Source: Marinobacter panjinensis
Lineage (GTDB): Bacteria > Pseudomonadota > Gammaproteobacteria > Pseudomonadales > Oleiphilaceae
NCBI RefSeq assembly: GCF_005298175.1
Contig: NZ_SZYH01000001.1
Coordinates: 1,054,001 to 1,118,000, forward strand
DNA: 64,000 nt
Direction of reading: 5' to 3'
Part shown: positions 51,956-55,174 of the stretch, piece after piece
Layout of the letters: the number at the start of each line of letters is the position of its first letter
Position numbering within the stretch: position 1 is the stretch's first letter
Position numbers and translations under genes: made by a program
Notes under the pieces: generated by a model
What the model was told of the DNA's origin: nothing
The model's database searches: none
The model's input: only the letters and a program-made list of their open reading frames with translations

Positions 51956-52477
51956 ATGACCACTGAAACCCAGGGCAATCACACTCCGGACACCGCCAGA
52001 AGCGCCTCCGGAACCGGCCACAAGCCCGCCAGCAAAGGCCATAATGTCCACGCCCCGGAAGTGGCTGCCTACTGGGACGAACGGCGCCGTTACCTGGAGC
52101 GCATACGCCGGGTTCCCGAGATCAGGCAACGATACTGGCGCGCCATCGGCATATACCTGTTGCGCAGGGTGTTGTGGTCCTTCGGGTTCTTTCCGGTGTT
52201 CCTGGCCTTCTGGATACCGTTCGTACTATCGAGTTTCAACCCGGTGGTGATGGCATCGGACCTGATACCACTACTGGAAAGTTTTGTCGACGCAAACCCG
52301 GAAGTCCAGGCCACCACTATAAGTACGCTGTTCATCGCCTGGGGATCTGTCGGATTCTTCTTTCTGGTGTTCGACTTCGTGCTGACCCCTTTCAAATCCC
52401 CCTATCAGTACGAGGCAGATGTGTACATGCGTTCCTGGGAACAGCTCAACCATGATCAGCTTCCGGAGAAAGTGTGA
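51956..52477 (+). CDS. Unknown two-helix membrane protein
   Basis: 173 residues, family not recognised. The first ~40 residues are hydrophilic and Ser/Thr/His-rich, followed by a basic stretch YWDERRRYLERIRRVPEIRQ and two membrane helices (about residues 66-98 and 125-145). The C-terminal tail SPYQYEADVYMRSWEQLNHD is polar. The gene is divergent from the M16 peptidase, with 98 bp between the starts, and sits 161 bp before the MORN protein gene. Confidence 0.65.
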   Translation: MTTETQGNHTPDTARSASGTGHKPASKGHNVHAPEVAAYWDERRRYLERIRRVPEIRQRYWRAIGIYLLRRVLWSFGFFPVFLAFWIPFVLSSFNPVVMASDLIPLLESFVDANPEVQATTISTLFIAWGSVGFFFLVFDFVLTPFKSPYQYEADVYMRSWEQLNHDQLPEKV

Positions 52478-52638
52478 TTTGTCCTGCATTCTCGTTAACT
52501 TCCGTGACTTTGTGTTACATAAGATTGCCCCGACTGGGTAAGATAAGGCTGTGTAATCCCTGATTCCCGTTGAACAACGACAATGACACGGGCGGGGCAC
52601 CGGCTGTAACACAAGAATGCAGAATCGAGAGGTTTCCC

Positions 52639-54021
52639 ATGGTCGATTTCAGACCGCTACTGTTCGTCAACGCCCTGGCACTGATGCTTCTGGTGACGGC
52701 CGGCTTTGCATCGGTGCGCAATGATCTTTCCATGGGCACGGATATCATTGCCAGTGAGCCGGAAGCCAAAGAAACCATCGCCACCGTTTCCACAGATACC
52801 CTGGAACCCGCATCCGACCAACTTTACCGGGAAGACAGCACCACCGAAGCCAGCGCTGCTGAAACTCCGGAACTGCCATTGGGGGACAGCGCTCTGGCCG
52901 CTTCCGGAGAACCCACTGGTGACGAGGCCGACACTGATCGTCGCGCCCGCGGCCGCATCACCGGCGAGCCCTTCTTTATTCCCGAACTACCCGAAGACCC
53001 GGAAATGCTGGCGGTTGCTGAACCCCATTCGGCAATGCCTGAAACGCGCACAGACGCATCCCCACAACAACCGGAAGAGCCCCGCCCGACAACCGGCAAG
53101 CTGGTGCTGCGCTCAAACGTGGTCGGCGATGAGGTCACTATCAACGGCAAGCACTACGGTGCCACCCGGCTGGATCTGGAACTGGAACCCGGCAGATACG
53201 AAGTGGTTATCAGCAAGGAGGGCCACAAGCCATGGCAGCAAACAGTAGCGCTCGCCGCTGGCAATGAAAAGACGCTGGTGGGCAAACTGGACGCCTACAC
53301 CCGGGTCGAATACCGCGACGGCACCTGGGTTGGCGGCATCAAAACCGGCGATGGCATCTATGAAGATGCCAAGGGCCTGCGCTACGAAGGACACTTCGTG
53401 GATGGCGAGTTTGATGGCAAAGGTACCGCCTGGTACCCCGACGGCAGTCGCTATAAAGGCGATTGGCGTGAGGGGCAGCGCCACGGTGAAGGGACCTGGC
53501 GGAATGCTGACGACACCCGCTATACCGGCCAGTTCCGCAACGACCAGTTTGACGGCCAGGGCACGCTGACCCTGGCGAACGATGATATTCTGACCGGGCA
53601 ATGGTCCGAAGGACAGCTGAACGGACATGGCTCACTCACTACGTCGGACGGCATGCTTTATGTCGGCGGCTTCCGGAACGACGAATTTCATGGCGAAGGC
53701 ACCCTCACCTACCCCGACGGACGACATTACGAAGGCGAATTTTCCAACGGCGAGTTCCATGGCAAAGGCAAGGAAGTGTTTGCCGATGGCAAGAAATACG
53801 AAGGTGAATACATCGAAGGCTCGTTCCACGGCAAGGGGCTGCTACGCAATCCCAACGGCAGCTCGATCGAGGCCACTTTCAGGTATGGCGAACCCTACGG
53901 ACAGGTGCGCCTGACAACGGCGGCCGGGGAGATTTTCACCGCCCGGACCAAGGAACCCGGTGTTTGTTATCGGGAGAAGAGCTATCGGGCAACCCAATGC
54001 CCGAAACTGGAAGGCTGGTAA
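52639..54021 (+). CDS. Membrane-anchored PEGA + MORN-repeat protein
   Basis: 460 residues from the ATG at 52639 (MVDFRPLLFVNALALMLLVT), with GAGAGG upstream; an in-frame TTG at 52570 was rejected. It has an N-terminal membrane anchor (about 7-23), a Pro/Glu-rich linker of ~130 residues, a PEGA-type domain (about 155-215: VTINGKHYGATRLDLELEPG), and about eight 23-residue MORN repeats (about 236-430, pattern YxGxFxxGxFxGxGTxxxxDG). The repeats form a long beta-sheet that would lie in the periplasm. MORN proteins bind lipids or act as scaffolds in other systems. The receiver-domain gene follows after 49 nt. Confidence 0.8.
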   Translation: MVDFRPLLFVNALALMLLVTAGFASVRNDLSMGTDIIASEPEAKETIATVSTDTLEPASDQLYREDSTTEASAAETPELPLGDSALAASGEPTGDEADTDRRARGRITGEPFFIPELPEDPEMLAVAEPHSAMPETRTDASPQQPEEPRPTTGKLVLRSNVVGDEVTINGKHYGATRLDLELEPGRYEVVISKEGHKPWQQTVALAAGNEKTLVGKLDAYTRVEYRDGTWVGGIKTGDGIYEDAKGLRYEGHFVDGEFDGKGTAWYPDGSRYKGDWREGQRHGEGTWRNADDTRYTGQFRNDQFDGQGTLTLANDDILTGQWSEGQLNGHGSLTTSDGMLYVGGFRNDEFHGEGTLTYPDGRHYEGEFSNGEFHGKGKEVFADGKKYEGEYIEGSFHGKGLLRNPNGSSIEATFRYGEPYGQVRLTTAAGEIFTARTKEPGVCYREKSYRATQCPKLEGW

Positions 54022-54070
54022 GCATCAGCCCGCTATTGAACACACATGCAGTAAAGGTTGAGGTTGTGAC

Positions 54071-55174
54071 ATGGCGATCAAGAATGCACTCCTGGTAGAC
54101 GACTCGAAAGTGGCTCGATTTGCCCTGAGCAAACTGCTGGAAGGCCGGGACATGGAAGTGAATATGGCCGGCTCGGCAGAGGAGGCGCTGGACTTCCTCA
54201 ACGCCAATAAGCGCCCCGATGTGATCTTCATGGATCACCTGATGCCGGGCATGAATGGCGTGGAAGCCACGAAGGCCATCAAGGGCAATCCGGAAACAGC
54301 CGCCATCCCCATCATCATGTGCACCTCGAAGAAGTCCCAGTCGTTTATGGAGGAGGCACGCAATTTCGGTGTCTACAACATTCTCACCAAGCCGCCTCAC
54401 ACAGAGGGCCTCAGCCTGGTCCTGGAGCAGCTTGACAGCGATGTGACCGATGGCAACCTTCCCGAACCACCGGAACCGGGCAACGCCGTCGCCGGGGCTA
54501 CGGAGGACGAACCTCTGGACATCCCCACGGATGCATCCCTGGAAATGTCTCCGAAAGCCGATGGTGAACCGCAGGGCAATGGCAGCGGTAGCGGCCCGCA
54601 GGTGGTTCCACTGACCAGCGATCTGATCGAACAGATTGCCCGCTCGGCTGTGAAGACTCACATCAACAATCGCCTGCATGAACTGCTCAGCTCACTGTTC
54701 GACGAACAGTTTGACCACCTCAAGCGGGCGCTGGACGAATCCGGCAAAAGACAGGAAGCAGCAGTTGAAGAGCGTCTCAACGCTGTGACCGAAATGATCG
54801 AACAGCGTACTCGCAATCTCCGGGATGACGTGGCAGCAGAGGTCAATCTCAACCTGGCTCGTGAGCTGGCCGAGTTGCGCAAGGATCTGTCCCGCAACAC
54901 GGGCTTCACCAGCAATCACATGGCAGAACTCAAAGACCACATCACCAGCGTACAGACCATTGATACCGAGTTCTGGCAGACCCTGCAATCAGAAGCCATA
55001 CAGCAGGCCCACGAGATCTCCCGGGAAACCGCCGAGGACATCGCCCAGCGCACTATCGATCTGTTTGTATCCCAGCAGCGTTCGGCCACATCCCGCCTCT
55101 ACACCATGGGCCTGGCCGCCAGCCTGGGCATTTTTGCAGTGGGCATCGCCTGGTTGTCAGGGCTGTTCGGGTAA
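54071..55174 (+). CDS. CheY-like receiver with C-terminal coiled coil and membrane tail
   Basis: 367 residues. Residues 1-125 are a receiver domain with all key residues: Asp10, Asp11, phospho-acceptor Asp55 ([12 protein letters not shown]), Thr85 and Lys107. No DNA-binding, GGDEF, EAL or HPt output domain follows. Instead there is a linker (about 125-185), a long coiled coil (about 190-340) and one membrane helix near the C-terminus (about 345-365), leaving the receiver in the cytoplasm. No histidine kinase gene is nearby. The gene lies 49 nt after the MORN protein gene, and its 3' end overlaps the convergent gene by 18 bp. Confidence 0.85.

Follow-up and report, generated by a model that had tools for sequence, protein, structure and literature searches.

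Comparative evidence for a functional link between a tail-anchored receiver protein and an adjacent PEGA/MORN membrane protein in Marinobacter panjinensis

In a 64,000 bp stretch of the Marinobacter panjinensis genome (assembly GCF_005298175.1, contig NZ_SZYH01000001.1, positions 1,054,001 to 1,118,000 of the forward strand; hereafter the window), three consecutive plus-strand genes, here called P1, P2 and P3, encode a two-helix membrane protein, a PEGA and MORN repeat protein with an N-terminal membrane helix, and a receiver with a membrane helix at its extreme C-terminus. P2 and P3 are very probably functionally linked and, as judged from sequence comparisons, the unit is P2-P3, with P1 as a neighbour. 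Comparison of related genomes showed that the two genes were inherited in a linked manner, that P2 was not found without P3, and that the constraint on P3, including that on one face of its membrane helix, depended on the presence of P2. From co-occurrence, joint loss, acceleration of P3 after the loss of P2 and the released helix face, we infer a partnership across the membrane; physical contact, topology, phosphorylation, an inside-to-outside direction and a periplasmic target would be its further elements. All three reading frames were intact and in the order given according to translation of the window, and the architectures that an earlier note on this DNA had proposed for them were borne out by open reading frames (ORFs), Pfam matches, hydropathy and AlphaFold models.

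The three genes are not chance ORFs, since P1 was matched in 80 of 80 and P2 in 79 of 80 named contigs retrieved for their similarity to P3. P2 itself was carried by 78 of these contigs, was absent from locus L053, and was represented in L045 by a remnant of 25 residues only; L045 and L154 were taken as one contig on account of the same layout and length (4802 bases), and in L154 the 25-residue remnant is retained at 1445–1519. The best named P3 matches were Marinobacter contigs with 91–92% identity. A fairer sample, as it was not chosen by P3 similarity, was provided by 151 genomes of the same family, in which the profile of the P3 C-terminal part was found in 137, P2 (E-value ≤1e-20) in 126 and P1 in 145 genomes. 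P2 never occurred without P3 (126/126), and every one of the 14 genomes lacking P3 also belonged to the 25 that lack P2, five of which were assigned by elimination from the match rows. One of the 14 (G136), in which the contig breaks off within P2, was not counted among the joint losses, and the loci read in the other 13 contained neither P2 nor P3, except for a P3 tail of 20 residues directly after P1 in G094, which is the footprint of a deletion. The last 20 residues of P3 lie directly after P1 at about 6165–6224 of L159 and mark the deletion of P2-P3. P3 without P2 was found in 11 family genomes; one of these (G005) lies at a contig edge with an unreadable P2 state, and the loci read in the other ten lie clear of contig ends. 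In a FastTree phylogeny built from three flanking proteins (103 loci and the window), the 13 joint losses fell into six clades and the P2-only losses into six clades; several inner nodes had weak support. L154 and L155 were not part of the tree, and L053, which was unlabelled in it, is sister to L148.

The neighbourhood conservation that the earlier note had asked for was observed across the family: the genes do occur together in other genomes, and the lack of such loci, which would have spoken against the proposal, was not encountered. From an M16-type protease gene to gltX, most Marinobacter loci shared the same gene order, and the protease adjoined P2-P3 in the loci of genus g4 too, as would be expected of unrelated neighbours in a region whose gene order is conserved as a whole. 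That reading is most improbable, being contradicted by co-loss and rate data. P2 and P3 remained adjacent where the downstream flank or P1 differed (L074, L080, L130, L168, L169), and the rate of P3 responds to the presence of P2. Among 283 order genomes, the profile of the P3 C-terminal part matched 12; ten were family members and two, with E-values about 1e-4, were judged to be chance matches, which leaves no convincing case beyond the family. The P2 profile (E-value ≤1e-25) matched 15 of 274 class genomes besides the source genome, all matches being confined to profile positions 215–419 and therefore representing the MORN part without the N-terminus or PEGA.

Loss of P2 was followed by faster evolution of P3. 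At matched divergence of the flanking protease (74–83% identity to the window), 45 P3 sequences taken as P2-bearing, a set that includes L053 (without P2) and L076 (P3 of 281 amino acids), averaged 86.1% identity to the window in the receiver and 79.7% in the C-terminal part, and nine P2-less P3 sequences averaged 70.1% and 47.1%, respectively. Relative rates were counted as unique changes in the P2-less sequence and in its nearest P2-bearing relative, with the window as outgroup. For residues 181–367 of P3 these were 46/6 (L150/L047), 48/10 (L131/L037), 31/6 (L151/L043), 49/7 (L149/L050) and 82/7 (L152/L059), and for the receiver of the same pairs, in this order, 16/1, 24/4, 15/4, 15/1 and 29/2. 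In five of six tested P2-loss lineages P3 thus evolved much faster than the flanking genes, and the controls (protease, GltX, QueD-like) were balanced (p above 0.05) for L150, L131, L151 and L149. The ratio of nonsynonymous to synonymous substitution rates (dN/dS) of P3 was 0.04–0.20 in three pairs tested within the P2-less clade L132/L147/L152/L153 and 0.07–0.08 for L148/L154; although these ratios are rough, synonymous divergence being near or above 1 in the tested pairs, such low values indicate that P3 without P2 is still under selection and not a pseudogene.

The positions released from constraint were located in an alignment of 80 P3 sequences with P2 and 11 without, in which 112 positions were at least 97% conserved in the presence of P2; L155 (from G005, beginning at the contig edge) was left out of the 11, L076 was left out by length, and L062 is gapped at 351–359. 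Phe355 was invariant in 79 of 79 sequences with P2 and changed in 8 of 11 without; at position 359, Ile was retained in 78 of 79 sequences with P2 (L130 has Leu) and replaced in 9 of the 11 without. Together with Ala255, these were the positions changed in most P2-less lineages (five of seven), and one or both of Phe355 and Ile359 were changed in six of the seven. Ser351, Phe355 and Ile359 are spaced by four and hence form one face of a helix. In L148 and L053, five distinct changes were found at the 112 conserved positions (R191H, I359A, S351G, A33V, F355L), three of them on this face. The hypergeometric probability of at least three of five changes falling in the seven conserved transmembrane sites was 0.0015, and a Fisher test of lineages against sequences gave p 1e-7; both were computed after seeing the data, and neither corrects for relatedness among the P2-bearing P3 sequences.

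P3 gave a Pfam match to Response_reg (PF00072) with 81.9 bits (cut-off 30.2), and its receiver fitted solved chains of RR468, Spo0F, CheY and DivK, which were among the best folds; receivers dominated the best 50 matches of the fold search. Asp10, Asp11, Asp55, Thr85 and Lys107 were invariant in all 46 aligned P3 sequences and intact in 80/80 P3 with P2 and 11/11 without, so that broken receiver residues, which would have spoken against the earlier proposal, were looked for and not encountered. In the AlphaFold model (46 sequences; mean predicted local distance difference test score, pLDDT, 77.7), the receiver is followed by helices 183–275 and 281–366, in an arrangement of domains that is uncertain because the predicted template modelling score is 0.41. 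A single hydropathy peak at residues 348–366 of 367, ending one residue short of the C-terminus, and the lack of an N-terminal signal give P3 the architecture of a tail-anchored protein, and the position of the helix predicts that insertion into the membrane would be post-translational. Pfam matches in the coil were weak, below their cut-offs, and were read as chance coiled-coil similarity; no output domain beyond the coil was recognised in the Pfam profile search. The description of P3 as a receiver with a coiled coil, a C-terminal membrane helix and no output domain was accordingly upheld.

For P2, the ATG giving 460 amino acids was taken as the start, since all 11 aligned sequences (the window and ten loci) have it, and an alternative TTG-started ORF of 483 amino acids was set aside. 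The protein has a hydrophobic segment at residues 8–26, a PEGA match (54.6 bits, cut-off 20.8), and a MORN match (135.8 bits, cut-off 22.5) of seven tandem stretches; by sequence profile against solved structures, the MORN part resembles MORN1, radial-spoke and junctophilin chains. Mean identity to the window over 54 loci was 92.9% in residues 1–26, 71.3% in PEGA, 76.6% in MORN and the tail, and 33.4% in the linker. In a nearby presumed Znu-type binding protein from 54 loci, the signal peptide averaged 25.7% and the mature part 62.9%; the best-matching start codon was chosen for both N-termini, which raises the figures of P2 and the binding protein alike. The N-terminal helix of P2 was therefore taken as a working, uncleaved membrane helix, since the best-conserved part of a protein is unlikely to be a signal peptide that is cleaved off. 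Cys443 and Cys454, invariant in 13 of 13 aligned orthologues, may form a periplasmic disulfide, and the pair would suit a periplasmic location.

The partnership can be drawn as follows. P3 would consist of a cytoplasmic receiver, a long helical stalk and one membrane helix at the extreme end, and P2 would be held by its uncleaved N-terminal helix with PEGA and MORN on the periplasmic side. The membrane helices of P2 and P3 would pack together, P3 contributing the Ser351-Phe355-Ile359 face. A distant kinase would phosphorylate Asp55 of P3, and the resulting change would be relayed along the stalk and via the helix pair, so changing the periplasmic binding of the MORN/PEGA part of P2. Direct contact of the membrane helices is rather likely, and for one inner-membrane complex signalling from the phospho-switch inside to MORN/PEGA outside the chances are about even. 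A phosphorylation-controlled envelope tether, in which a two-component phosphoryl signal would pass out of the cytoplasm via the helix pair, the P3 helix switching a junctophilin-like P2 and so altering how the inner membrane is attached to the wall or outer membrane, without any part for transcription or an enzyme, is a tentative extension and on the unlikely side.

Several observations weigh against the partnership as drawn. L148 and L053, which share one loss, were not accelerated relative to L048 (11/12 and 14/11 in P3 181–367), and in L152 the protease (98/63) and QueD-like (39/13) genes were raised as well, the comparison relative being distant. Ala255, in the coil, was released as widely as Phe355 and Ile359. 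L154, which keeps the P2 remnant, differed at just one of the 112 sites (E300D) and was unchanged at 351, 355 and 359, and L155, with its unreadable P2 state, keeps Phe355 and Ile359. The face could also serve self-association of P3 that mattered only with P2. In one P2-bearing genome (G122) P3 is split over two frames, and the joint losses may represent single deletions of neighbouring genes. A partner kinase was not found, one candidate having been followed. This kinase (L209 3089–5887; BvgS-like, we presume from its appearance) was chosen by eye as a strong match without a receiver match nearby, and was matched at E-value ≤1e-120 in 142 of 151 family genomes, partly over the C-terminal two thirds only. 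As the partner of P3 it gained no support: all 13 genomes that lack P2-P3 had a strong match, and at the same threshold nine genomes with P2-P3 or P3, g4 included, had none. As the earlier note had stated, no kinase is nearby, at least as far as the HATPase_c family is concerned: no match was found near P1-P3, the nearest in the 4.42 Mb genome being about 62 kb away; there may be a distant cognate kinase. A phosphodonor of the CheA or ChpA type would be a guess.

The same data would fit signalling from outside in, with PEGA/MORN of P2 sensing the periplasm and setting the conformation or dephosphorylation of P3 through the helix pair, and P3 talking to cytoplasmic partners. P3 persists without P2 in ten genomes, under purifying selection in the tested pairs, and thus has its own function, which P2 might do no more than modulate; against this stands the lack of a recognised output domain in P3 beyond the coil, and the present data give no direction. 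We regard this alternative as somewhat unlikely. Less probable still, though not negligible, is that P2 and P3 share a process without touching, the helix face of P3 serving homodimers or another membrane partner that was lost together with P2. The acceleration indeed extends beyond the membrane helix to the receiver, with the counts given above, and to the first coil, where Leu181, Gln188, Arg191, Ser192 and Ala255 were released; this too counts against the partnership with helix contact. However, the least-changed P2-less pair differing at conserved transmembrane sites concentrates its changes on the transmembrane face, and the helix of P2 is itself unusually conserved, both of which argue for contact.

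P1, which the earlier note had included as a third member, does not share this history. It has hydropathy peaks at residues 72–90 and 125–143, no Pfam or NCBIfam match at E-value ≤1, and an AlphaFold model (pLDDT 78.3) with no Foldseek match at E-value ≤0.001; alignment with solved chains in VIA-align gave Z 3.5 and 3.2 (three chains aligned), by which the fold is not made new. A three-gene system is suggested by the position of P1 directly upstream in most loci read, by its presence in most family genomes, and by its raised rate in two P2-only-loss comparisons (unique changes P2-less/relative 26/8 in L131 and 28/11 in L152). The three genes were not gained and lost as one system, however. A P1 match was still detectable in all 13 genomes without P2-P3, broken up in G134, and was not found in five of five sampled g4 genomes carrying P2-P3 (three g4 loci, L130, L168 and L169, were read directly) nor in G005. 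The P1 rate showed no significant rise in five pairs with P2-P3 lost. Membership of P1 is thus very improbable, and of the earlier proposal the coupling of a membrane receiver to a MORN/PEGA protein stands, whereas P1 as a component does not. P1-like two-helix proteins without P2-P3 were also present in two f7 genomes of a 293-genome order sample (L128:9679–10293 and L129:9089–9745), where the genes are divergent from a run of what we take to be type II secretion genes.

After the P1 stop codon, a block of about 70 bases was conserved in 11 aligned sequences. It was recognisable ahead of P3 in the P2-less loci L148, L053, L151 and L154, was hard to recognise by eye in other P2-less loci, and was not seen in seven joint-loss loci read, except for its first bases in L159. 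Since it is kept ahead of P3 in these four P2-less loci and gone from the joint-loss loci read, the block is probably the control region of P2-P3 and may act as their promoter; a sigma-70 consensus was not found in the block scan. The flanking genes are presumed, from the appearance of their sequences, to encode the M16-type protease, MobA-like, QueD-like, GltX and Znu-type binding proteins. P3 shares its last 18 bases (window 55157–55174) with the 3′ end of the MobA-like gene, which is convergent to it.

Features of the P1-P3 locus (positions in the window)
Feature	Position	Strand	Description and basis
P1	51956-52477	+	173 aa, two-helix membrane protein, judged a neighbour outside the P2-P3 unit
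Conserved non-coding block after P1 stop	52475-52546	+	Alignment of 11 sequences
P2	52639-54021	+	460 aa, PEGA and MORN, membrane helix at the N-terminus, domain predicted to be periplasmic
P2 residues 1-26, N-terminal membrane helix	52639-52716	+	Proposed P3 contact; conservation over 54 loci
P2 PEGA domain, residues 153-213	53095-53277	+	Pfam match
P2 MORN region, residues about 228-420	53320-53898	+	Pfam, sequence profile; limits approximate
P2 conserved C-terminal segment with C443 and C454	53956-54006	+	Both invariant in 13/13; putative disulfide
P3	54071-55174	+	367 aa, tail-anchored receiver protein
P3 receiver domain, residues 1-120 (D10, D11, D55, T85, K107)	54071-54430	+	Pfam, alignment, fold match
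P3 long helices 183-275 and 281-343 (coiled-coil stalk)	54617-55099	+	AlphaFold model, conservation
P3 C-terminal membrane helix, residues 344-367, face S351/F355/I359	55100-55171	+	Hydropathy, alignment

Receivers resembling P3 were found beyond the P2-P3 unit. The whole-P3 profile (E-value ≤1e-38) matched four class genomes besides the source genome, via the receiver. In two genera of family f150, receivers of 369 amino acids (L206:5764–6873) and 383 amino acids (L208:991–2142) had a C-terminal membrane helix by hydropathy; they lie beside what are presumably sugar-nucleotide and polysaccharide genes. Of the other whole-profile class matches, L205 (222 amino acids) had no hydropathy peak and L207 a peak only at 214 of 450. 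Two genomes that also carry P2-P3, G010 and G014, contain second receivers with a hydrophobic C-terminal tail, as judged by eye, away from the MORN gene (L145:6788–7915, 375 amino acids; L146:8302–9654, 450 amino acids), which the P3 C-terminal profile does not find. Like P3, these four proteins consist of a receiver, a long middle part and a hydrophobic extreme C-terminus; unlike P3, they had no MORN gene recognised beside them. P2 thus looks, from these sequences, like an additional partner of a more widespread kind of receiver fixed in the membrane. The own genome has 68 receiver matches, P3 among them; 18 of the regions were fetched and 17 analysed, and 12 of these gave a receiver-like ORF (L172–L174, L182 and L184 yielded none under the filter); none of the 12 had a C-terminal membrane helix, by which P3 is not proven to be the sole one.

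P3 shares the receiver fold and the five catalytic residues with stand-alone receivers of the CheY, DivK and Spo0F type, but has in addition a stalk, about 160 residues long, and the C-terminal membrane helix, and by prediction is not diffusible. As in classical two-component systems, the receiver is by sequence able to accept phosphate, yet there is no nearby kinase gene and no recognised DNA-binding or enzymatic output. Junctophilins and MORN1 have MORN repeats in common with P2, and in junctophilin a membrane helix at one end allows one protein to bridge two membranes. P2 differs in being bacterial, in its N-terminal helix, in the predicted periplasmic location of MORN and in the added PEGA; the likeness is one of architecture only. 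No paper on tail-anchored bacterial receivers, or on MORN, PEGA and a response regulator together, was found in a literature search whose coverage did not extend to most subscription journals. One precedent for a membrane-anchored response regulator was found, the MetOD3 response regulators of methanogens, the output part of which is said to be membrane-anchored (PMC5847659). These differ from P3 in being archaeal and of very few members, and no MORN is mentioned in the passages on them (PMC5847659).

The evolutionary data single out residues of P3 to test. Should the proposed complex be real, bacterial periplasmic MORN repeats would gain a concrete partner. Receivers are usually soluble or fused to DNA-binding or enzyme domains, and one that is fixed by its tail and has a periplasmic repeat protein as its partner across the membrane would, if true, constitute an inside-to-outside route for two-component signalling.

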